Origin: Lignipirellula cremea
GTDB taxonomy: Bacteria; Planctomycetota; Planctomycetia; Pirellulales; Pirellulaceae
Reading direction: 5' to 3'
NCBI RefSeq assembly: GCF_007751035.1
Contig: NZ_CP036433.1
Coordinates: forward strand, 4,135,001 to 4,199,000
DNA: 64,000 bases
Shown: piece by piece, positions 9,965-21,678 of the stretch
Layout: each line of letters begins with the position of its first letter
Numbering within the stretch: position 1 is the stretch's first letter
Position numbers and translations under genes: made by a program
The notes under the pieces: generated by a model
The model's input: the letters and a program-made list of their open reading frames with translations, nothing else
The model's database searches: none
Told to the model about the DNA's origin: nothing

Positions 9965-10065
9965 GACTATCCTTGGAAATGAAAGGGGACCCGGGCAGCG
10001 ACAAGCGTCGCGCGGGCCAGCGTAAGGTTCGTTGACCGCAATCGTGCAGGCACGATCAGAGGAGG

Positions 10066-11580
10066 TTATTTTTTAAGAGGCGGAACGCCAATTTGCCGGG
10101 GCGACGAGGTAACGCGGAAGACCAGGTCCAGCGGAATGCCGTCGGCGTCCTCTGCTGGATCGCCGTTGTCGTCGACAAGGTTCTGGCCCACACTGTACAC
10201 CGTCGCAGGATCCGTACGGTTCGCCGGAGCAAGGTACCTCAATGGCTGGGAATCGAACGGGTCGAGGGGACGCACATTAGCGGATTGGCCCTCCAGTTGT
10301 CTCAGCTCCTGAGGAAAAACTCCCGTTACCTGGCGAAATCGTTCGAGGGCAATCCCTTCGTATGCGGTGATGTGACGGGCGTGGGTGCTGGCGCAGGCAA
10401 TCAGCACGGCGGCGGCGTTGGGGAAAATGGCGTTGGTTACGGGGTACCGAACGGACCCCAGACCACGGGACTCCTGCTCCATTTCGTCTTCAATCGTCTG
10501 GAAGATGGGGATCGTTTTCGCGAAGGGCTTTTGCATCGCTTGGATCAGTTTTCGATAGTTTTGCAGAGCGTAGAGCAGGTCCTCCGGCTGCTGGATTTCT
10601 TCGGCCTGGAGGATGTCTTCCGGTCCCTCTGCTAACTGCTCCAGAGCGATGTTGTCGCCATACCGAAAAATGGCGATCGCCAAGGCCCGTTCCCCCAGCA
10701 GGGCGGCGCTCAGGGAGGAATGGGTGCGCCCTTGCACAAAAGCCGACTGAACGGCGATTAGATCTTGCTGGTTCCAGTTGTTTCCTGGCATCAGGTCCTG
10801 CAGGGAGGACCAGGCACTTTCGATACAGGCAAAACCAGCGATCTGGGGACGGATCGTTGGTTGCCTTTGCAGCAGACGGGCCAGACCCAGTGTGTCCATC
10901 AGGGCAGCGGCGGCGCCAGACGTGTCGCCGTTATGCGCGGCGCAGTACGCTTTCAGCCTGAGCAGGGAAATGGCTCGGCGGGCCGCTGACAGACCGGCAA
11001 ACTCCGGCCTCTTGTCGACAGAGAAACTGATCGGGAAAACGCCCACGCCTTGCTCGCGTGCCTGGCGCAGCAACGTGAGCGCACGGGCGTGCTTTGTCAC
11101 CAGTCTGTCCGCAACCTGTTTTTTGGGCCACGCCTTACCTGGCGCCGGAGCGGGGCTAACCCCGGAAAGCAGTTCCTCGATCGCGTCGAAATCGGCGATA
11201 AACTGGGGATCGTCCAGCGCCTCGAAGGCCTGGAGCCAGTATTTGGCAGCTTCCGGTTTGTCTTGGTGCCATGACCTCGGCTTGAGTATTTCGCTGATTT
11301 CGAACGGTCCCTCCTGGTCGCGGATGCGGGTCAGTTCCACCTTCAGGGCCTTCCTGGCCTGCCTCTGCAGGTAGTACCATCCGCCGCAGCAAAGCAGGCA
11401 AGGAGAGGCGGCTGCGAACGCCACCATCCCCAGCATCAACAGGCGACAGCCGTTCCGCGAAGGCGTTTCGAGCTGCCGCGGCCTGTCGCGAAGCGGAGCC
11501 GATGCGGCGGACTCCGGCGTCACCTGGCGGGGCGTATCAAGGTCGCGAGGCCGTTCCGCGGGGGAGTGTTCGTCCTGCAT
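10066..11580 (-). CDS. Membrane-anchored hypothetical protein, tandem paralogue
   Basis: A 504-residue protein of unknown function with the same plan as the gene at 8483-9964. It has a disordered Pro-rich N-terminal tail, one helix with a CLLCCGG cluster near residues 50-72, an alpha-helical middle, and a C-terminal block DPFDSQPLRYLAP ... VYSVGQNLVDDNG ... DADGIPLDLVFRV. Shared internal stretches include SAWSSLQDLMPGN and a shared ALLGERALAI. The 100-bp upstream spacers of both paralogues also resemble each other, so the duplicated unit included the upstream region. The first gene (in transcription order) may drive both; no promoter was assigned. Confidence 0.78.
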   Translation of the reverse strand: MQDEHSPAERPRDLDTPRQVTPESAASAPLRDRPRQLETPSRNGCRLLMLGMVAFAAASPCLLCCGGWYYLQRQARKALKVELTRIRDQEGPFEISEILKPRSWHQDKPEAAKYWLQAFEALDDPQFIADFDAIEELLSGVSPAPAPGKAWPKKQVADRLVTKHARALTLLRQAREQGVGVFPISFSVDKRPEFAGLSAARRAISLLRLKAYCAAHNGDTSGAAAALMDTLGLARLLQRQPTIRPQIAGFACIESAWSSLQDLMPGNNWNQQDLIAVQSAFVQGRTHSSLSAALLGERALAIAIFRYGDNIALEQLAEGPEDILQAEEIQQPEDLLYALQNYRKLIQAMQKPFAKTIPIFQTIEDEMEQESRGLGSVRYPVTNAIFPNAAAVLIACASTHARHITAYEGIALERFRQVTGVFPQELRQLEGQSANVRPLDPFDSQPLRYLAPANRTDPATVYSVGQNLVDDNGDPAEDADGIPLDLVFRVTSSPRQIGVPPLKK

Positions 11581-11679
11581 GACTGCCTTTGGAAAAGTAA
11601 GTAGCTCCGCGCGACGACGTGCTTCGCGCGAGGGCGTAAGACTCGGCAGTTGGCTCCGTGCAGAGAGCCGGGCCGGGCG

Positions 11680-12963
11680 TTAAAGTTTGGACCGCTGATC
11701 AATAAAGCGGCGGCCTTTGCCTTCAAAACGCGGCAACGAGCCCAGCGGGGCGTCGGCCACCTCGATCCGCAGGCCGAGACGCAGCTGAAGCTCCTGGGCC
11801 ACGCGTTGCGGTTGCTGCAGGCGATCTTCGACTTCGACACGCAGACAATCCATTTCGTGTTCCGTAAAGGCGGTCAGCCGGTATTCGACGACTTCGGGAA
11901 AGCTGAGCAGGATCTGCTCGATCGAGGCGGGAAAGATATTCACCCCTCGCACCACCAGCATGTCGTCGACGCGGCCCAGCACGCCGCCTTCGAGCAGGAC
12001 GAAGTTGCAGTCGCCCGAGCCGTTCCAGGTGGGCCGAACCAGATCGCCGGTGCGATAGCGGATCACGGGGCTGCCCAGCCGGCCGAGGGTGGTCAGCACC
12101 AGTTCGGAAAGTTCGCCTTCTCCGGCCAGATCGCCGCTGGCCAGGGAACGGAATTCGGCGAGGAACTCGCTTTCATTGATGTAGAGCCCTTGCCGTTGCG
12201 GATCGCTGTATCCCCAGGCGCCGATCTCGCTGGCGCCGGCGTGATCGATCAGCTTCGCATTCCAGGCCGTTTCAATCCGTTCCCGGCGGGCTGGCACGGA
12301 TCCGCCCGGTTCGCCGGCGACGACGATCTTTTTCACGCCCAGCGATGCCGGATCGATATGCTGTTCTCTCGCCGTTTCCGCCAGGTGCAGCGCATAGCTG
12401 GGAGTGCAGAACAGGGCCGTCGCGTGCAGGTTGCGGAGGAGATCCAGCCGGGCGACCGAACTCATTCCGCCGGTGGGAACCGTCAAGCAGCCGCGCGCAG
12501 CAACCGCATCGAACGCGCTCCAGAAACCGATGAACGGCCCAAAAGAAAACGCCATCAGCACGCGGTCGGCTGGCGTCAATTCGGCGGCGTCCAGCACGAA
12601 CTGCCAGTTATGCAGCCACCACTCCCAGTCGTCGGGCGTATCCAGCACGACCATCGGTCGCCCGTGCGTACCGGAAGTACGATGGAAACGGGAGTAACGT
12701 TCCAGCGGCCAGGTCAGGTTGGCGGCCAGATCGCCTTCGTGCTTGCCGGCGACCAGCTCTTCCTTGAAGGTGAAGGGCAGGTTGGCCAGTTCGTCCAGCG
12801 ACGTTAAAGGCAACGCCAGGTCGGAAAACTTTTCGGCGTAGAACCGATTGTGGGGCAGAATCGCGGCCAGCAGTTGATTCAAACGATCCAGTTGATGGTC
12901 GACCAGCGACTGGGAGTCGAGTGTTTCCAATTGCCGGCGGTTTTCAAAGGTCGAGTTTTTCAT
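11680..12963 (-). CDS. Phenylacetate-CoA ligase-like AMP-forming enzyme
   Basis: A 427-residue protein of the adenylate-forming superfamily, closest in pattern to phenylacetate-CoA ligases (about 430 residues). Visible are the ATP-binding loop HRTSGTHGRP near residue 105, the A5-like GASEIGAWGYSD region near 240, RYRTGDLVRP near 320, and the hinge/C-terminal motif GRVDDMLVVRGVNIFP near 342. The ATG at 12963 (MKNSTFENRR) was chosen; the longer frame to 13176 adds 71 Arg/Pro-rich residues unlike the family. The substrate acid is unknown and no phenylacetate-catabolism genes are nearby, so no gene symbol is given. Confidence 0.85.
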   Translation of the reverse strand: MKNSTFENRRQLETLDSQSLVDHQLDRLNQLLAAILPHNRFYAEKFSDLALPLTSLDELANLPFTFKEELVAGKHEGDLAANLTWPLERYSRFHRTSGTHGRPMVVLDTPDDWEWWLHNWQFVLDAAELTPADRVLMAFSFGPFIGFWSAFDAVAARGCLTVPTGGMSSVARLDLLRNLHATALFCTPSYALHLAETAREQHIDPASLGVKKIVVAGEPGGSVPARRERIETAWNAKLIDHAGASEIGAWGYSDPQRQGLYINESEFLAEFRSLASGDLAGEGELSELVLTTLGRLGSPVIRYRTGDLVRPTWNGSGDCNFVLLEGGVLGRVDDMLVVRGVNIFPASIEQILLSFPEVVEYRLTAFTEHEMDCLRVEVEDRLQQPQRVAQELQLRLGLRIEVADAPLGSLPRFEGKGRRFIDQRSKL

Positions 12964-13196
12964 TCCCCAATGATAAATCGTCGTACGGCCGCTGCAATCG
13001 GGCGTTCCCCATTCCGGTCCCTGACGGAGCCTGGACCCGGTCGAGGGTTGGCGCATCAAAACAGGCGGCGTCGGTCGGGGCATTCGCCCTTTCCGTCGCC
13101 GCCTGAGGAGAGGTTTGCGACTTTCAGAAAGTTCGCGCAGGGAGACCGGCTCGGAGCCCTGTCCTGGCTCTGGCAAGTCGGTGCGTTTCCGGGAAA

Positions 13197-14303
13197 TTAT
13201 TCCGCGAAGTCGAGCACGGTCGGACGACCGCTGGTGCGAGACTTCCAGACGCTGCTGCTGGTCGGCAGGGCGTTACGGGTGTCGCTCGGGTTGAGTTTCG
13301 CCGGGGCGCCATGGCTACGGCGGCTGGAGGATTCGGTCGACAGCAGGCTGCGGGGCGAGGCAAAGCTGGCTTCTTCCGACACCGTTGTGGTATGCGAGAT
13401 CGGAGCAACCAGGAAACCAGCGCCAATCGGCGTGCTGGTGGGGGTGCCCACCGGGCCGGGAGCGTCGTCTTCAAACGGGTCGGTCGGACGCGGCGACGGC
13501 GGCGATGTCGGCGGGACCGGGGCCGATTCCTCGTGCGGAATCGGCGGAGCGCCTAGCGAGGTTGCCGGGGCCGACGGCGAATAGTGCGGAATCTCGCTGC
13601 CGTAATTTCCCGACGGGCCACAGCGGCAACCTTCGCTCGGATGGAAGTGACGCGGCGGGCCAAACGAAATGGTCTGTCCGGCGCTGCATCCGGAGTCGCA
13701 ACAACCCGAATCGCAGCAGCCAGAGTCACAGCCGTGATTTTTGCCTTTACAGCCGAGGAACAGGTCAAACAGGCTCTTCCGCTTCCCTTTGCAGCCGCCA
13801 GCGTGGCCGCAACCACAGGTCGGTTCGCAACCACAAGTCGGTTCGCAACCGCAGGTCGGTTCACAACCACAGGTCGGTTCACAACCGCAAGTCGGTTCAC
13901 AACCGCAAGTCGGTTCACAACCGCAAGTCGGCTCGCAACCACAGGTCGGTTCACAACCGCAACTGGGCGGGGCGCCGCAGCAGCCGGACGAATCGCAGTC
14001 GCTGCAGCCGTGGCCGCACGATTTATGGCCGCTAAACAGACTTCGGAACAGGCCGCATTTCTTTTTGCCGCAGCTCGGCTGCGCACCGCAAGTCGGCTCA
14101 CAACCGCAGGTGGGTGTGGCGCTACAGGTGGGTTCACAACCGCAGGTCGGCTGGCAACCGCACGTGGGAGCGACGGCACAGCCGCCTCCGCGGAAGAAAC
14201 CAACCTGGTGGAACAGGCTCCGCGGCGCCGATTGAGCGTAGCCGCTGGCAGCCGTCAGACCGCAAACCAACATGGCGGCCAGTAGTGTGTGGACATTTCT
14301 CAT
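13197..14303 (-). CDS. Secreted Cys-rich CGCEPT-repeat protein
   Basis: A 368-residue protein with a signal peptide (MRNVHTLLAAMLVCGLTAAS, cleavage near GYAQ). The mature N-terminal half is dominated by Cys-Gly motifs: scattered PTCGCEPTC units, then about eight consecutive CGCEPT hexapeptides, then CDSGCCDSGCCDSGC. The C-terminal third is Pro/Ser-rich and Cys-free. Such regular CxC spacing could bind metals or form a disulphide-rich surface structure; neither is shown. I know of no named domain matching it. The gene lies upstream of the acyl-CoA-ligase-like gene with a 233-bp gap, so co-transcription is uncertain. Confidence 0.82.
   Translation of the reverse strand: MRNVHTLLAAMLVCGLTAASGYAQSAPRSLFHQVGFFRGGGCAVAPTCGCQPTCGCEPTCSATPTCGCEPTCGAQPSCGKKKCGLFRSLFSGHKSCGHGCSDCDSSGCCGAPPSCGCEPTCGCEPTCGCEPTCGCEPTCGCEPTCGCEPTCGCEPTCGCEPTCGCGHAGGCKGKRKSLFDLFLGCKGKNHGCDSGCCDSGCCDSGCSAGQTISFGPPRHFHPSEGCRCGPSGNYGSEIPHYSPSAPATSLGAPPIPHEESAPVPPTSPPSPRPTDPFEDDAPGPVGTPTSTPIGAGFLVAPISHTTTVSEEASFASPRSLLSTESSSRRSHGAPAKLNPSDTRNALPTSSSVWKSRTSGRPTVLDFAE
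13808..13967 (-). repeat. 18-bp tandem repeat encoding CGCEPT
   Basis: About eight copies of an 18-bp unit (plus-strand form like CAACCACAGGTCGGTTCG) lie head to tail inside the coding frame at 13197-14303. The unit is a multiple of three, and differences between copies are mostly synonymous (caggtc/caagtc, ttcg/ttca). The amino-acid repeat is therefore under selection, and copy number is likely to vary between strains. Confidence 0.85.
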
Positions 14304-14582
14304 CGACGAACTCCATCCCTGGAATCTAGAAGTTGCTGTGGCGGTATCGCAGAAGACAGGCGCCGCCGGGATTAGCTATCGAACCGCTGCGATAAGAACA
14401 TTCATAACTTTCGATTCCACCCGAGCCTCCTGCCTTATCGGAAACAACGCCCAAAAACGCAGCAGCTTCCCTGATCCGCAAAGTCAATACAGGAATGCTG
14501 TGAAGATGCGATGGATGCGAAGAGTTTACTGACTGTTGGGCGATGAAAGACTTCGCCGCGAGCAGGGGCGCAGAAGAATCGC

Positions 14583-16241
14583 TTAACGCACCGACTGCGA
14601 CTTCATGCGCTGCCGATAATATTTGAGCCCGGGAAAAAAGAAGCAGGCGGCGCTCACGGCGCCAAAGATCAGATGGGCGACCTCTGGCGCCAGAGCCATG
14701 GCGACCGCCGTCAGAAACAGGGCGAGCGACTGCAGGTAAAACGCCCCGCTGAGGATGCCGGCCTTGACGAAAAACACCATGCCGTTGATCAGCCCCAGAA
14801 TGGGCGACAGCTTCAGCGGCTCCAGGCTCAGCCAGGCCTCCAACGGAAACAGCATGGCGATACAAATGATGCTGGCCGCCCAGACATGCGCAATCTGCCG
14901 CTCGACAAACAGCACCGGTCCCATCCGCCGCCGCAGCGCCCAGAACACGGCCGCCCAGGCTCCAAAGCCCGCCGTCCACAGGGCGAAGTAGTAGTACCGC
15001 ACGCCCTGCAGCGAATACTGCATGTCGATCCAGAACACGACATTCGTCAGCAGGCAGGCGACAAAAATCGCCAGGCTGTGCCACATCCACAGCAGGCCCC
15101 AGTTCTCCAGGACGACCGCGTGGTGTGTCTCCCGGAACATGCGGGCAATCACGTGACTGAACCGCCCGCTCCGGGCGGCGATCGGTTCATCGTTGAGGAA
15201 CGCTTCCAGATCGCGGGCCAGATCGTCGGCCGACCGATAACGCAAGTCCGACGGCTTCTGCAGGCAACGCAGCGCGATCATTTCCAGATCGCGATTCGCC
15301 TGGGGATTCAGCACCCGCGGGGGAACCGGCTCCTGTTCGCGAAGCAGCAAAATGGTGTCCAGCGGAGTCGCCGCCTGGAAGGGAGGCCGCCCTGCCAGTG
15401 CGTGGTAGAGCATGGCGCCCAGGCTGTAGACATCGGTCGCCGGGCCCAGGTCGCGAACGCCGTTGGCTTGTTCGGGCGACATGTACGAAGGCGTACCCAG
15501 CACCGCGCCGGTGCGGGTCAGGTTGCCCTGGTCGGTCGCCTGTTTGGCCAGTCCAAAGTCGGTCACGTGCGGCTGACCGTGTTCGTCGAGGAGGATATTC
15601 GAAGGCTTCAGGTCGCGGTGCAAGACTCCTTGCTGATGGGCGAAGTGAATGGCTTTCGCCACGGCGGCGATCAGGCGAGCCGCTTCGCGCGGCGGCAACG
15701 GCCCGGTCGCCAGTAGCTGCAGGAGCGTACTGCCTTCGATGTACTTCATGCTGAAGTAGGAATGGCCGCCCAGTTCGCCCACTTCGTAAACGGGGACGAT
15801 CCCATGGTGATCCAGCCGGGCCGCCGCCTGGGCCTCGGTATAAAACCGTTCCAGATCGGCCGTTGAAGCCAGTTCGCCCCGCAGGATCATTTTCACGGCG
15901 ACTTCGCGGTTCAGGCTTTCCTGGCGGGCCCGATACACCACGCCCATGCCGCCCCGGCCGATCTCCTCCAGCAGTTCGTAGTCGTCGATCAGGCAGGGCG
16001 TTTTCAATCCTTGCCAGCGATCAATGGAGGCGGCGGAGGAGAAGCCCGCGCTGCGATCACTACCGGCGGCGTCGGCGAACATCACCGCGCCCCAGAGAAG
16101 TCGGAGCTCCTCGGCAAACGTCGGATGCTCGGCGCAGACCTCCGCCAGATCGACGGTCTCGCCGCGCTGGGCGGCGTCGGTCAGCTCTCCGAGCAACCGC
16201 GCCAGTTGTTCATCATGTTCAGACGATTCGGACAAATTCAC
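14583..16241 (-). CDS. Membrane-bound Ser/Thr protein kinase
   Basis: A 552-residue Hanks-type kinase. The N-terminal region of about 85 residues is acidic and typical of planctomycete kinases. The kinase domain at about 89-350 has the glycine loop GRGGMGVVYRA, Lys117 in VAVK, HRD at 208-210, DFG at 228-230 and GTPSYMSPEQA. After it come about six hydrophobic helices (residues 375-540), an unusual multi-span C-terminus. No ATG fits the start: the frame is open to 16601 but that extension looks non-coding. I chose the GTG at 16241 (NLSESSEHDEQ follows), with AAGG about 10 bp upstream. Substrates are unknown. Confidence 0.85.
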   Translation of the reverse strand: MNLSESSEHDEQLARLLGELTDAAQRGETVDLAEVCAEHPTFAEELRLLWGAVMFADAAGSDRSAGFSSAASIDRWQGLKTPCLIDDYELLEEIGRGGMGVVYRARQESLNREVAVKMILRGELASTADLERFYTEAQAAARLDHHGIVPVYEVGELGGHSYFSMKYIEGSTLLQLLATGPLPPREAARLIAAVAKAIHFAHQQGVLHRDLKPSNILLDEHGQPHVTDFGLAKQATDQGNLTRTGAVLGTPSYMSPEQANGVRDLGPATDVYSLGAMLYHALAGRPPFQAATPLDTILLLREQEPVPPRVLNPQANRDLEMIALRCLQKPSDLRYRSADDLARDLEAFLNDEPIAARSGRFSHVIARMFRETHHAVVLENWGLLWMWHSLAIFVACLLTNVVFWIDMQYSLQGVRYYYFALWTAGFGAWAAVFWALRRRMGPVLFVERQIAHVWAASIICIAMLFPLEAWLSLEPLKLSPILGLINGMVFFVKAGILSGAFYLQSLALFLTAVAMALAPEVAHLIFGAVSAACFFFPGLKYYRQRMKSQSVR

Positions 16242-16659
16242 TGGCGAGAACCTTGGCGGGATCAAAAGCAACCTGATCAGTATAACCGCACCTTCGCCCG
16301 GCGGAGGGCATGCTGCATCAACCGGGCGACCGCGACGTTCGGCACGATCGACAGCGGTTGCCCCAACTGCCGACATCCCCACACGGGGAGCCGGAAACGC
16401 CTTCTGCGAGAACCAACGCGTCCGTATCTGCGTACCAGAGTGCAGGCGAGAATCGCGTCTCTTCCCATGTTTTATTGAGTAAACCGCAAAAAGGTCCGTT
16501 TCCGGCGGGCGCTGAGCGGCGTGGTTCGGCGGGTTGCTCCGAGGGGCGGGCGGCCGCCTGGCAGGATCGGCGGAACCGTTCCAACCCTCGACATCCGGCA
16601 TTATCTCGGCGTATGATTGGGGGAAGTTACCCCTCGGACAGGTTTGGAGGAGTTTGGCG
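16242..16659. other. Divergent intergenic region between kinase and PDZ-protein genes
   Basis: This 418-bp spacer separates divergent genes and must carry both promoters. Open frames here are extensions of the flanking genes with Arg/Pro-rich composition and no family motif. The only assigned signal is GGAGG at 16646-16650, the ribosome-binding site of the PDZ-protein gene. Confidence 0.4.
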
Positions 16660-18165
16660 ATGGATCATGCGTTGAAGATTTGCCTGGCGCTGGCTTTTTG
16701 CCTGGCGCCGCATGGGGCGCGTGCGGAAGCGATTCCGGTCGACCAGATTGCCCGGCAAGTTCAGCAGCTGGGTTCGGCCCATTATCGTGAGCGAAAGCAG
16801 GCTCAGGCGGCCCTCATTGCCCTCGGCGACAAAGCGGTGCAGCCTTTGAAGTACGCCCTGCAGAGCGACAATCCCGAAGCCACGTGGCGGGCGATTACCA
16901 TCCTGGAAACGATCGCCCTGCATGGCGAACAGGAGGCCGCCGACGACGCTTTGGCCGTGCTGGAAGCGTATGGCGCCGGTGGCGACCCGGAAGTGACCGC
17001 GACGATCAGGCAGCTGCAGTATCGCCTGGTAGTGCAACGGCATCTCGATGGCAGCCGCCAGCTGGCGGCCCAGGGCGCCCGGTTTGAGCAGGGCCAGAGT
17101 GCAGCGGAAGCGGCCGGTCTGGCAGGAACGTACGACGAAACGGTCCCCCGCGAGTTGCTGTCTTATACCTCCGACGTGACGGAGCCTGTCGACTATCCGT
17201 CTCCCCCGGCGACTGCTTTTTCGGAGTTTGGTGGGAGCAAGGATCTCAAGATTTTTTCCGCCAAAGTCGCCACGGCCCGGCCCGTGCTTGATCCCGACGA
17301 TTCTCCGTTAGCGGTCGAAGTCGAAGAGACGGCTCCCGGAAGCATGGGACTCAGCGGCCGTCCGGCAGGGGCGGCGATGACGCTGCCTGAGCCGAAGCCG
17401 TTGACGGCCACGCTCCTGACGCCTTCGACGGAACCCTTGGAAATTGAATCGCCTGTACGCGCAGACGACACGGTCATTGAAGAAACGGCGGTGGAACGCA
17501 CTACGATCGAGGAAGCGGATAACGACGCCCATTTCCGTGAGGCGACGGACGAAATCCTGGCGTTGATCCAGGTCCAGGATCCCAGCGAACCGATTGCAGG
17601 CAGTTCGGCGTTTGAATTCACCGCGCACGAACCGCCCCACATGATGTATCTGACGGCTGCCTGGCGTGGACGGCCTGTCGACCTGAAGTTGCTGTCGCAG
17701 ATGGCGCTGCTGACCGAGATCCAGGTGCAGAACCGCAAGCTGGGACAGGACGAGCTGCAGCAGCTGGCTGCGGCGCCGGGCCTGGTCCGGCTGATGTTGA
17801 CCAACTGCCAGTGCCCGCTGACGGCGCTTAAGAAAATCAAAACAGACCATCCTCAGCTGGAAGTGAGTGCGTTTGGTCCGGCCGTGCTGGGCGTGTCGGC
17901 CGATTTGAGCGAACCGGTCCGCAGTCCCTTCCAGGTGGGCGTGCTGGCGTCCGGCCATGGAGCCGAAGCGGCAGGCGTCAAAATTGGCGATCAGATCACG
18001 GCCGTCGATGGCGAGCCGATCGCCGATTTCTTCGAACTCACCTTCGCTCTGGCCAGCCGTCGGGTGGGCGAACGGGTCAAGCTCAGCATTGTTCGCGAGG
18101 GCAAGCCGATGAGCCTGACCGCCCAGTTGGGCTCCAGCACGCCGACCTATCTGCCCCCGCGGTAA
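16660..18165 (+). CDS. Secreted PDZ-domain protein with HEAT-like N-terminus
   Basis: A 501-residue protein with a signal peptide (ALKICLALAFCLAPHGARA). Residues about 30-110 look like two helical HEAT-type repeats (RERKQAQAALIALGDKAVQPLKYAL). A long acidic, low-complexity linker follows to about 360. The C-terminal domain at about 415-495 is a PDZ fold (GAEAAGVKIGDQITAVDGEPI and GERVKLSIVREG). No protease catalytic motif is present, so it is probably an adaptor in the periplasm rather than a peptidase. The ATG at 16660 follows GGAGG by 9 bp. Confidence 0.8.
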   Translation: MDHALKICLALAFCLAPHGARAEAIPVDQIARQVQQLGSAHYRERKQAQAALIALGDKAVQPLKYALQSDNPEATWRAITILETIALHGEQEAADDALAVLEAYGAGGDPEVTATIRQLQYRLVVQRHLDGSRQLAAQGARFEQGQSAAEAAGLAGTYDETVPRELLSYTSDVTEPVDYPSPPATAFSEFGGSKDLKIFSAKVATARPVLDPDDSPLAVEVEETAPGSMGLSGRPAGAAMTLPEPKPLTATLLTPSTEPLEIESPVRADDTVIEETAVERTTIEEADNDAHFREATDEILALIQVQDPSEPIAGSSAFEFTAHEPPHMMYLTAAWRGRPVDLKLLSQMALLTEIQVQNRKLGQDELQQLAAAPGLVRLMLTNCQCPLTALKKIKTDHPQLEVSAFGPAVLGVSADLSEPVRSPFQVGVLASGHGAEAAGVKIGDQITAVDGEPIADFFELTFALASRRVGERVKLSIVREGKPMSLTAQLGSSTPTYLPPR

Positions 18166-18292
18166 TCGTGAGGACCATTGTCAGGGGCGCTGCCTTCCGA
18201 GGTCTGGGATCGGCTGTTACTTTTGGCTGAGCCCAGCGGGACGAACGCGGGCCTCTGCCTCCCGCCTCTGCTCCGCGCGGGAAACCGCCTTC

Positions 18293-19585
18293 TTAAAACG
18301 CTGGTAGATGGATCGACACGACCGCGCCGTTGCCGGGGGTGGATTCGATCTCCAGCGATCCGCCCAGTCGTTCCACCACGCTGCGGGCCAGGAACAGTCC
18401 CATGCCCATACCCTGGCCGGTGTCTTTGGTGGTGAAGAACGGCTCGCCTGCGCGGGCCAGTGTTTCGGGCGTCATGCCGCTTCCCTGGTCGCGGGTCTCG
18501 AACAGCCAGTCTTCCCCTTCGGGGACCACGCGCAGTTGCACCGTGGCCTCGGGAGCGGAAGCGTCGAGCGCATTCTGCAGCACGCCGCGGAGCGACTGGG
18601 CCATGCTCTGCAGGGGCAGCTGGATCGGGCGAAGGCGATCTTCGTCCGACACCTGCAGATCGATCAGTCCAGGGCGGCGAAGCCCCGAGAGGACGTCGTC
18701 GAGGAACTCGCCAATGGTCAAATGGGAGACTTCCTCGCCCATCATCTGGCCCGCGTTGCCAGCCATGCGATGCAGGATGTTGCGGCAGTGATCCAGCTCG
18801 CTGCGGATCAACTCCACATCTTCGCGCACCGAGGCCGGAGCGTCGGCGTCGACCAGGTGGCGGGAGAGTTCTTTGGCGACCACGGCGATCGTCGACAGGG
18901 GAGAGGCCAGCTCGTGTCCGGCGCCGGCGGCCAGGGTCGCCAGCGCTTCCAGCCGTTCGCTCCGGGCGCGCTGTTGCTCGGCGATGCGTAGTTCGTTTTC
19001 GCGGCGACGCAGCTCTTTGGTCAGACGGGTGATGAAATAGGTCGTTACGGTCGCGCAACCAAAAAACGCCGCCAGCATTCCCTGTTCCCAGAGCGACATG
19101 TGCTGGCCGTTGGAACGCTGTTCCAGCTCGGGAACCGGGCGATGCACGACCAGGATCATGGCGAAACAGATCACCGCGCCTGCTGTCAGCGACCACGCCC
19201 AAGGGCGCGGCAGCACCACGGCTGCCAGGGCCAGATTGACCAGAAAGAACACGGCGAACGGATTGGTCACGCCGCCGGTAAAGTACAGCAGCATGGTCAG
19301 CGACGCCAGGTCGACGGCCATGACGGCGGCCAGCAACGCAGGGTGCGGCGTTTCCGGTCCCGCGACCACTCCCTGTCGGTGACGCAGCCACCAGGCGAGC
19401 GCCAGGTTGGTGATGGCTGTGAAGCCGACTACGCCCAACAAGGGAGCCAGCGGCAACTGGATCTGATAGGCGCCCAGCGCCAGCAGCACCGTCGCCAGTT
19501 GACCGGCTGCGGCCAGCCAGCGCAGTCGCACCAGCCAGGCGGCGTTGAGGCTAACCGCGGCGTTTCGATTGACATCGGCATGCAT
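18293..19585 (-). CDS. RegB/PrrB-like redox sensor histidine kinase
   Basis: A 430-residue protein with six N-terminal membrane helices (about 16-185). The third/fourth helix region contains GGVTNPF at 104-110, the GGxxNPF heptad known in RegB/PrrB/ActS as the quinone-sensing box. The H-box is AAGAGHELASPLSTI with phospho-acceptor His224. Cys267 (ELDHCRNIL) lies where the redox-active Cys265 of RegB is found. The N-box (QNALDAS) and G-boxes (DQGSGM, GQGMGMGL) complete the ATPase domain. Such kinases tune respiratory and redox genes through a RegA response regulator, which is not in this window. Confidence 0.88.
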   Translation of the reverse strand: MHADVNRNAAVSLNAAWLVRLRWLAAAGQLATVLLALGAYQIQLPLAPLLGVVGFTAITNLALAWWLRHRQGVVAGPETPHPALLAAVMAVDLASLTMLLYFTGGVTNPFAVFFLVNLALAAVVLPRPWAWSLTAGAVICFAMILVVHRPVPELEQRSNGQHMSLWEQGMLAAFFGCATVTTYFITRLTKELRRRENELRIAEQQRARSERLEALATLAAGAGHELASPLSTIAVVAKELSRHLVDADAPASVREDVELIRSELDHCRNILHRMAGNAGQMMGEEVSHLTIGEFLDDVLSGLRRPGLIDLQVSDEDRLRPIQLPLQSMAQSLRGVLQNALDASAPEATVQLRVVPEGEDWLFETRDQGSGMTPETLARAGEPFFTTKDTGQGMGMGLFLARSVVERLGGSLEIESTPGNGAVVSIHLPAF

Positions 19586-19677
19586 CGGGGCGGAGACTTT
19601 CTCCCGGCGTTACGCGAGGGCCGGCGCGCGGCAGAGAGAGAACGGCGCGCTTCGCCTGGGGTCGCAGGACGGAATCG

Positions 19678-21678
19678 TTACCGGGCCGGTTTCTCGCCTG
19701 CCGGTTTGTCCTGGTCGGGCTGGTTGTTGTTTGGATTTTCGGCGGGCGGCTTTTCCTTGCCGGAGGATGCTTCTTTCTCTGCAGCCCCCTCTTCTTCGTC
19801 CTCTTCATAATGGACGGGCGTTTGCTGGGGAACAATGGCCAGGATGGTGTCGCCCGCCTGGGGAGGAGTTTCGTTGTCGGCGGTGATAATCCGCACGGTT
19901 CCGCCTTCGCTGATGACGAACATCAGGACGGGAGCGTCGTTGTACTGCACGCGGTAATCGCTCAGCGTGAACTCTTCGGTCAGTTTAGTGCGTTTGATCA
20001 GGCAGGCCCCGCCAGGGCCCAGCAACTGCGACAGCTTTTCATAGGACATGTTCTTGTCGAACAGCCGACGTCCCTGCAGCTGACGGCCGACCGCTTCCCG
20101 GGCGCCGGCTCCGCCTTCGGCCGGCGGCAACTGATAGACGTTCTGGCGTCCGAAGTGGTGGGTGAAGACGCGCACCGCCAGGACATTGACCGTATCGTTC
20201 GGGGTGAGCGCCATCAGCCGGCCGATGCCGCCCAGTTCCAGCTCTTCGGCTACATGCTCTGACAAAATACTGGCGCATTCGGCTCGCATGCCTTCCATGC
20301 GGGCGGCCGCCACGTGGCGGAAGTTGGTGTCGACAACAAGGACCAGCACGCCGTTGTCGTGGAGGGCTTTGGCGATCGTCCGGGCGGCGGTCCCTGCCCC
20401 GGCGATCAGTACGCCTTGCGGATTGGGATCGGCCAGTCCCAGCAGGCGGGCCACCACGCCGGAAAACAGTCCGTAGACCAGAACCGTGCCAAAAATGACC
20501 AGGAAGGCGACCGCGGCCATTTCTTCCGACTGCTCCACCATGTCGATCGAGGTGAAGTGTTTGGCCGCCTTGATGGCGAAGATCGAAGCGACGGCCGCCG
20601 CCACAATTCCTCGCGGCGCCAGGAACGAAAGGAACACTTTCTCCCGCCAGTTAAGATCGCAACCGATCGTCGACAACGCCACCGAGGCGGGCCGCACGAT
20701 CAGGATCATGGCGGCCACAAACACGGCCCCCGGCCAGCCCAGCTGCCAGACCTGGGCCAACTCCACTCGGGAGCCCAGCACAATAAACAGGCAGGCGATC
20801 AGCAGCACCACCAGGTGCTCTTTGAATTCGGCCACATGCTTGAGCGATACGGTTTTCTGGTTGGCCAGATAAATTCCCAGCACGGTGACCGTGACCAGAC
20901 CCGATTCGTTCTGCAGATGGTTCGACCAGGCGAAGGAAGCCAAAGCAGCCGACAGGACAAAGGCCCCCTGCAGAAAGTCAGGGATCCAGTAGCGGCTAAA
21001 GGCCCATTCGATCAGCACCCCCAGCGCCAGGCCGGCCGAACCGCCGACCAGGATCGTTTTGGTCAGCGCCCAGGCGATGATCGGAGCCGAGGCTCCGCTT
21101 TCGCTGGAGATCGCCTCAAAGACCAGCACGGCCAGCACGGCGCCGACCGGGTCGATCACGATCCCTTCCCATTTGACGATCGAACCAATCCGGCGTTTCG
21201 GCTGGATATGTCGCAGCAGGGGGGCGATGACGGTCGGTCCCGTCACCACCAGGATCGCCCCGATCAGCGTTGCCAGGCGGGCGTCAAAACCCAGCACCCA
21301 CCAGGCGGCGATGGCGGTGAGCACCCAGGAGACGATCGCTCCCAGCGTGCAAAGGCGCAGGACGACCCCGCCGGACTGTTTCAGCTCGCTCAAACGCAGC
21401 GTCAGGCCGCCTTCGAGCATGATGATCGCCACCGACAGGGAAACAATCGGGAACAGGAACAGGTCGGAGTCAATCTCCTGGTGGGGCGACAGCCGCTGAA
21501 ACACGGCGTCGGGCGGCAGAAAAATTCCCAGCACCACCCCGAACGACAACAGCAGCAGAATCGAAGGCAGCCGCAATCGCCAGGCCAGCCATTGGGCCGA
21601 GACGCCTAACAGGGCGACGCCGGCCAGATAGTACAGCAGCAAATGCTCGGAGTGTTCCACGCTTGTTCCAGCCAGCAT
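19678..21678 (-). CDS. CPA1-type cation:proton antiporter with TrkA-N domain
   Basis: A 666-residue inner-membrane protein. About 12 hydrophobic helices span residues 8-400, with the antiporter core including GPTVIAPLLRHI and the SESGASAPI... regulatory-type stretch. A cytosolic RCK/TrkA-N domain follows (about 410-540; Rossmann loop IAGAGTAARTIAKAL), then a TrkA-C-like segment. The last about 50 residues are acidic, then Lys/Pro/Asn-rich. It should exchange Na+ or K+ for H+ with nucleotide gating. The start at 21678 (MLAGTSVEHSEH) is favoured; an in-frame start 36 bp upstream is possible. The stop lies 92 bp before the RegB-like gene start, so the two could be co-transcribed. Confidence 0.87.
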   Translation of the reverse strand: MLAGTSVEHSEHLLLYYLAGVALLGVSAQWLAWRLRLPSILLLLSFGVVLGIFLPPDAVFQRLSPHQEIDSDLFLFPIVSLSVAIIMLEGGLTLRLSELKQSGGVVLRLCTLGAIVSWVLTAIAAWWVLGFDARLATLIGAILVVTGPTVIAPLLRHIQPKRRIGSIVKWEGIVIDPVGAVLAVLVFEAISSESGASAPIIAWALTKTILVGGSAGLALGVLIEWAFSRYWIPDFLQGAFVLSAALASFAWSNHLQNESGLVTVTVLGIYLANQKTVSLKHVAEFKEHLVVLLIACLFIVLGSRVELAQVWQLGWPGAVFVAAMILIVRPASVALSTIGCDLNWREKVFLSFLAPRGIVAAAVASIFAIKAAKHFTSIDMVEQSEEMAAVAFLVIFGTVLVYGLFSGVVARLLGLADPNPQGVLIAGAGTAARTIAKALHDNGVLVLVVDTNFRHVAAARMEGMRAECASILSEHVAEELELGGIGRLMALTPNDTVNVLAVRVFTHHFGRQNVYQLPPAEGGAGAREAVGRQLQGRRLFDKNMSYEKLSQLLGPGGACLIKRTKLTEEFTLSDYRVQYNDAPVLMFVISEGGTVRIITADNETPPQAGDTILAIVPQQTPVHYEEDEEEGAAEKEASSGKEKPPAENPNNNQPDQDKPAGEKPAR

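Follow-up and report, generated by a model that had tools for sequence, protein, structure and literature searches.

The window analyzed here is a stretch of 64,000 nucleotides from Lignipirellula cremea, and its minus strand carries an open reading frame of 368 codons, starting with ATG, that encodes the cysteine-repeat protein P0001 (Table 1). The protein has 45 cysteines, 44 of them at or after residue 25, and they are concentrated in arrays that are separated by basic hydrophobic inserts. A candidate ribosome-binding site precedes the start codon, and GGAG-type sites were also found 5' of the start codons of relatives that were printed out and inspected. The initial annotation called the protein secreted, and this description is backed by an N-terminus that resembles a signal peptide when read by eye and by a helix in the AlphaFold2 (AF2) model. 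Signal-peptide-like starts, recognized by eye and by rule, are present in P0001 and its relatives, and export of P0001 is likely. The sequence CCDSGC adjoins inserts in all three paralogues of P0001 too. The bulk of the tail of P0001 has no aligned counterpart among the 19 other members of the family profile described below.

Table 1. Features of the cysteine-repeat gene in the window, its paralogues in the same genome, and leader RNA sites (among others) of related loci
Feature	Position	Strand	Basis or length
Whole ORF, cysteine-repeat protein P0001, 368 aa	13197..14303	(-)	ORF and translation
Candidate ribosome-binding site GGAG, ATG 7 nt further on	14311..14314	(-)	sequence
Signal-peptide-like N-terminus, aa 1-24	14232..14303	(-)	sequence by eye; AF2 helix at residues 4-18
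First, irregular Cys array, aa 48-78, including single CGCEPT units at aa 54 and aa 66	14070..14162	(-)	sequence
Basic hydrophobic insert 1, aa 79-95 (GKKKCGLFRSLFSGHKS)	14019..14069	(-)	sequence; aligns with inserts of relatives
Main array of 8 consecutive CGCEPT units, aa 115-162	13818..13961	(-)	Tandem Repeats Finder and unit count
Basic hydrophobic insert 2, aa 172-191 (KGKRKSLFDLFLGCKGKNHG)	13731..13790	(-)	sequence
CDSGC, three copies, aa 192-206	13686..13730	(-)	sequence
Pro/Ser/Thr-rich tail, aa 207-368, 2 Cys only	13200..13685	(-)	alignment; pLDDT blocks 35-54
Paralogue	C1:3763878		187 aa
Paralogue	near C1:6155 kb		482 aa
Paralogue	near C1:1278 kb		420-aa open frame; 395 aa from likely start
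Leader RNA site	L032:4477-4596		120-position covariance model R1
Leader RNA site	L044:2671-2793		120-position covariance model R1
Leader RNA site	L045:4753-4885		120-position covariance model R1
Leader RNA site	L051:4825-4959		120-position covariance model R1
Leader RNA site	L106:1501-1624	(-)	120-position covariance model R1
Leader RNA site	L107:1501-1629	(-)	120-position covariance model R1

An ORF for a Ser/Thr kinase (PF00069, window positions 14583-16601, minus strand) lies 279 nt upstream of the P0001 gene in the same orientation; hydrophobic stretches close to the C-terminus of the kinase can be seen by eye. Downstream, also on the same strand, is an AMP-ligase gene whose best NCBIfam matches are PaaK models, under their cut-offs. 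When 29 relative loci and the window were compared, no cluster of neighboring genes exceeded 11 loci and the clusters stayed within groups of related loci. A conserved partner gene was therefore set aside, and the neighborhood, where annotation in the relatives covers two neighbor families only, indicates no functional partner. Elsewhere in the same genome, locus L015 (C1:8071913-8075098) contains a minus-strand open frame of 666 residues with long runs of PMGDAGE/K and GQGE-type repeats.

The initial annotation described about eight perfect CGCEPT units and took the synonymous variation among them as a sign of selection for the periodic CxC motif. There are eight consecutive units and two single ones, thus ten CGCEPT in P0001. 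Tandem Repeats Finder reported an 18-bp array at 13810-13962 with 8.5 copies and 88% matches, and a 54-bp reading of the same array scored slightly higher. Within the eight-unit array only four DNA columns vary, every one of them a third codon position, and none of the 11 departures from the consensus changes the encoded residue. The probability of synonymous-only change by chance was 5e-7 when the 11 changes were counted and 0.005 in a more cautious version based on the four variable columns; both values are a rough guide, with changes taken as independent, transitions weighted 3:1, and gene conversion between units ignored. When residues 41-210 were shuffled 2000 times, CGCEPT never formed a run of more than one unit. 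The commonest short spacings between cysteines in P0001 are 6 (27 pairs), 4 (15 pairs), and 2 (13 pairs).

The relatives are under purifying selection: dN/dS was between 0.019 and 0.233 in 17 pairs, which were hand-chosen among related rows, share members, and include four with dS above 1. Together with the synonymous differences inside the array, these ratios support selection for the cysteines. A broken repeat frame in relatives had been named as a finding that would speak against the initial annotation, and none was seen. The frame is whole in 28 of the 28 loci, out of 32, that contain a whole gene; the other four could not be fully judged for frame, L041 because of an N run and L049, L050, and L052 because they are truncated. 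The gene ends of L033 and L035-L037 were rechecked for frame. An expansion at the DNA level in a dispensable gene, in frame by chance, would account for a repeat that is visible in the DNA and varies in number among relatives, but it is extremely unlikely in view of the synonymous-only differences, the dN/dS of 0.02-0.23, the conserved start region and ribosome-binding site, and the wide distribution. P0001 is not a chance product.

The genome encodes three paralogues of P0001, four members in all. A pattern scan of a collection of species genomes with P0001 gave, as the initial annotation had proposed to look for, repeats in other planctomycetes: 32 loci were confirmed, every record was titled as planctomycete, and Rhodopirellula, Rubripirellula, Aeoliella, and other Pirellulales were among them. 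We built a profile, A1, from 20 members (P0001 and 19 relatives, including the paralogue L010) and applied it at E <= 1e-6, with the own genome counted in each sample. It matched 108 of 196 genomes of the order sample, including 32 of 35 from the same family (Pirellulaceae), and three genomes of that family gave no match. In the class sample 59 of 297 genomes matched, namely 33 of 36 from the same family, 25 others from the same order, and one from another order. Across the phylum the matches were 4 of 294, every one from the same family. These counts are partly circular, because relatives that serve as rows of A1 turn up again in the samples. P0001 by itself reached 18 of 60 relatives at E <= 1e-3, its own genome included, and therefore the breadth of the family emerges only with the profile.

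P0001 shares with this Pirellulales family a probable export signal, PxCG units, and basic hydrophobic inserts between the arrays; its match to A1 (E = 3.9e-49) is so by construction, since P0001 is one of the rows. Short-type members start, for example, with MRRVIVPALLA...ASAFGLF, and their Cys arrays are parted by basic inserts, two in most. Longer-type members start with MKWNIL or MKRTIL...QSFGFDLLDRMLG and end with PPAPVVDPSA...VR or similar. Divergent forms are P0001 and the 482-aa paralogue, in which a long tail or head is poor in Cys. The number of PxC units per protein ranges from 7 to 16 across the 26 short-type loci between L022 and L053. Judged by titles and the beginnings of abstracts, the family was not found in the literature, where the string CGCEP leads only to one paper, on Candida. 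The family is unnamed and common in one order, and it is of a kind already known, the Cys-rich exported repeat proteins of planctomycetes.

Searches against Pfam and NCBIfam gave no match above cut-off for P0001 or for 27 members (E up to 0.1 for the members). The only Pfam match listed for P0001 at E up to 10 was the procyclic acidic repetitive protein (PF05887), which was rejected at 14.9 bits against a curated cut-off of 100 bits. At E up to 0.1 this profile also matched 9 of the 27 members (best E 1.4e-4), and we read these matches as reflecting a common Glu-Pro repeat composition. PDB sequences gave three weak matches, the best (E = 0.023) to a Thr-Pro repeat. The YTV cell-wall protein family (PF07639) was rejected as well, with no match for P0001 at E up to 10 and none among the 27 members at E up to 0.1. 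Elsewhere in the same genome the PF07639 profile gave 17 matches in four regions (C1:3914739-3915836, 1228186-1228416, 1347761-1348057, and 7521140-7521244), the first of which sits inside a 539-aa open frame with 75 Cys. YTV-domain proteins are described as Cys-rich cell-wall proteins confined to Planctomycetales in one report (PMC8567305). They are exported, as the P0001 family probably is, and like it they are Cys-rich and repetitive. This genome has both, but the YTV repeats are longer and aromatic (e.g. CYTVCKPVWETKTRE in L054).

Two further groups of Cys-rich proteins were compared. The high-sulfur keratin-associated proteins of hair consist of short Cys, Pro, and Ser/Thr repeats and have a role in the disulfide matrix. 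They are described as Cys-rich proteins without a specific fold (PMC12101200). Some members of the P0001 family resemble them, with the sequence CCAPEPTCC in L043. The hair proteins are animal and intracellular, and the resemblance would be convergence at most. Chlamydiae and planctomycetes belong to one superphylum. The chlamydial proteins OmcA and OmcB are, to our knowledge, free of any hexapeptide array, and a homologue of them was rejected as no such Pfam or NCBIfam match was found among the 27 members at E up to 0.1. OmcA and OmcB are Cys-rich as the P0001 family is, and are thought to help structure the envelope according to one paper (PMC2811131).

To see what the unit requires, we counted matches to the pattern [EDANQ]-P-[ASTVIEG]-?-G-?-[EDNQ], in which Cys is not required; since P and G are fixed by the pattern, the count measures the two Cys positions only. 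The set consisted of 50 proteins (P0001, 28 of the 32 pattern-scan loci, the three paralogues, and 18 other relatives), whose rows are related; L041 with its N run and the fragments L049, L050, and L052 were omitted. The first Cys was present in 426 of 426 units. At the second position Cys was found in 362, and the other units had Ala (29), Val (22), Ile (7), Phe (3), Met, Thr, or Leu (1 each), while His or Asp occurred in none of the 426. The invariant element is therefore P-x-C-G rather than CxC, which is ruled out as invariant by the 64 units with another residue at the second position. The emphasis of the initial annotation on a periodic CxC motif thus holds for the first Cys, which is obligatory, and not for the second, which is replaceable. 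In tallies of 53 proteins, some of them untrimmed, PxCGC made up 0 of 14 PxC units in L060 and 0 of 11 in L075, and L071 and L077 each had a single PxCGC unit. PxCC units numbered six in L043, six in L048, and eight in L096. L060 and L077 both come from genome G030, their PxC is followed by GC in 0 of 14 and 1 of 14 units, and the units are mostly EPxCGV or EPECGA; these two proteins are a natural test of what CxC is for.

Metallothioneins have dense CxC motifs, and P0001 could be thought of as a metallothionein-like metal sponge outside the cytoplasm, in which the CGC pairs and acidic residues would bind soft metals, for instance copper, zinc, or cadmium, as a store or shield; the initial annotation had also named soft metals. 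The density of CxC, the acidic residues, and the presence of His in many inserts would suit such a role, and so would the lack of a predicted fold for the apo sequence and odd numbers of Cys, which would also suit free thiols. Neither P0001 nor any of the 27 members matched a metallothionein profile, and compared with metallothioneins P0001 is longer, probably exported, and Pro-rich, with a second Cys that is dispensable in its family. The CxC chelate is dispensable, because the second Cys is replaced, mostly by A, V, I, or F and never by His or Asp in 426 units, and because L060 and L075 have no PxCGC. The mostly hydrophobic replacement mildly argues against a strict metal site. Moreover, no neighbor cluster is common to all loci (the largest has 11), though few neighbors are annotated. 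We regard the metal sponge as unlikely, if still tenable.

The number of Cys in the mature proteins, with cleavage sites guessed by rule, was even in 25 of the 50 proteins and odd in the other 25. One fixed set of intramolecular disulfides was set aside on account of this parity. A lipobox-like stretch was seen in 3 of the 50 proteins (L040, L042, and L060), and therefore the members need not all share one mode of export.

The CGC units might instead act like protein disulfide isomerase, as a redox catalyst or buffer that shuffles the disulfides of other envelope proteins. One paper (PMC4316792) quotes -167 mV as the reduction potential of CGC and mentions CGC peptides with isomerase-like activity. 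In L023-L026 a thioredoxin-reductase gene lies convergent, 189-428 nt downstream; only the copy at L024:5626-6681(-) was annotated (TIGR01292, above cut-off), and those in L023, L025, and L026 are its cluster mates. This neighbor may be chance synteny, because it is convergent and belongs to one cluster of four related loci. Against a catalyst, the second Cys is missing in 64 of 426 units and the PxCGC units number 0, 0, 1, and 1 in L060, L075, L071, and L077. A redox role is thus improbable.

The charge of the chain follows its cysteines. We took all 12-residue windows beyond residue 30 and classed them by Cys number alone. Across the 50 proteins, the mean net charge was +2.3 in windows with at most one Cys and -1.5 in windows with at least three. 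The low-Cys mean was above the high-Cys mean in 48 of 50 proteins, and in 49 of 50 when the stretch past the last Cys was left out. From residue 25 on, the chain is net negative in 45 of 50. Acidic, Cys-dense stretches thus alternate with basic, Cys-poor, hydrophobic inserts. A separate count in which inserts were positive in 47 of 50 proteins is not evidence for this, as its rule demanded a net positive charge or at least two His and the result is partly by construction.

The helical amphipathicity of the inserts was about at shuffle level (mean z 0.4), and because it is barely above that of shuffles, binding of membranes by the inserts is weakly supported. This bears on the possibility that P0001 is a secreted precursor or agent acting on membranes, with cationic GLLxRLFxKK inserts as the active peptides and the Cys arrays as spacers or a stabilizing frame. 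The Cys-poor stretches are indeed cationic and often hydrophobic, but their amphipathicity and the presence of the family in 32 of 35 genomes of the same family, which would be unusual for a weapon as far as is generally known, make this a very improbable explanation.

AF2 models of P0001 (27 sequences; mean pLDDT 45.2, pTM 0.19) and of L032 (17 sequences; mean pLDDT 40.7, pTM 0.12) were both without confidence, and a defined fold was set aside. The sole helix in either model lay in the signal region. Such low confidence would be expected of disorder, and a shallow, repetitive alignment gives the same result.

For short-type genes of the Rhodopirellula/Rubripirellula group, an alignment of 10 loci 5' of the gene contains long invariant stretches and a predicted multi-stem structure. 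Where measured, this leader RNA lies 34-40 nt before the start codon. Among 57 sources, the covariance model R1, built from these loci, recovered its own 10 rows and L088 at E < 1e-20 on the strand of the gene; 10 of these 11 strong sources are thus rows of the model, and L088 repeats L034. Fainter echoes came from the opposite strand. In L064 the region 5' of the gene matched weakly on both strands (E = 3.5e-5 on the strand of the gene). No R1 match was found in the window or in the paralogue loci of the same genome. Among 149 genomes of the same family, eight matched at E <= 0.01 and none had a second site. Three of the eight (G163, G175, and G783) correspond to L034, L041, and L045, already in the model. 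Of the other five, G307, G769, G739, and G011 have the element 34-40 nt 5' of a member gene, and the match in G080 (E = 0.009) falls inside an ORF.

The pairing covaries: with 12 sequences, both partners change in 8 of 37 pairs, compared with 3.2 in shuffles (none of 500 reached 8) and with 0-4 when the partners were slid, in an alignment that was fitted to the model and is hence biased towards structure. Further pair types were less striking, numbering 23 against 20.6 in shuffles, of which 20 in 500 reached that count. The long central helix has 15 pairs, and 13 of them are constant. Fold z-scores of six single sequences were -4.0, -0.4, -3.8, -1.6, -3.5, and -2.4. At Rfam's own thresholds, four loci and window positions 10000-20000 were all without a match; at E up to 5, L032 gave only chance-level matches (best 0.35) and L045 none. 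We infer from its position that the leader RNA is transcribed with the gene or regulates it.

The charge pattern, the replaceable second Cys, and the Cys parity fit a disordered matrix protein with variable, partly intermolecular disulfides more readily than they fit a fixed fold or a CxC metal site of the strict kind. We give about an even chance to P0001 being exported and having a structural role in the cell envelope or in an extracellular matrix, cross-linked by variable disulfides. After export, the disordered arrays would oxidize and cross-link within and between chains. As in the matrix proteins of hair, there would be many cross-links, interchangeable instead of set in fixed pairs. The first Cys of each unit would be the obligatory cross-linker, and the second, if present, would add a further link. 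The basic inserts would tether the chains, with the outer membrane, an anionic polymer, or acidic arrays on neighboring chains as the partner. The number of units could drift by gain or loss of repeats, because no defined fold would depend on it. The genome contains two VKOR matches and no DsbB match, and the former would provide a possible route for forming disulfides.

The initial annotation had suggested a disulfide ladder in the proteinaceous cell envelope, and its envelope reading seems plausible. An early report, cited in PMC2754498, describes a planctomycete protein sacculus with disulfide bonds, and Cys-rich YTV proteins are described in planctomycete walls (PMC8567305). A broader proposal is that the Pirellulales envelope is partly a prokaryotic counterpart of the high-sulfur matrix proteins of hair: disordered, alternately charged chains would first come together by electrostatic attraction between acidic Cys arrays and basic inserts and would then be locked by promiscuous disulfides, with a dedicated leader RNA controlling synthesis in the Rhodopirellula/Rubripirellula group. 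We consider this proposal speculative and, taken as a whole, rather unlikely.

How the unusual planctomycete envelope is held together is a long-standing question, for which the YTV proteins are named candidates in the wall (PMC8567305). The cysteine-repeat family is a further concrete set of genes to test for a role in the envelope, and it may make up a sulfur-cross-linked portion of the cell surface. If the matrix reading is true, it would mean convergence on disordered, Cys-Pro-rich cross-linking proteins outside animals.
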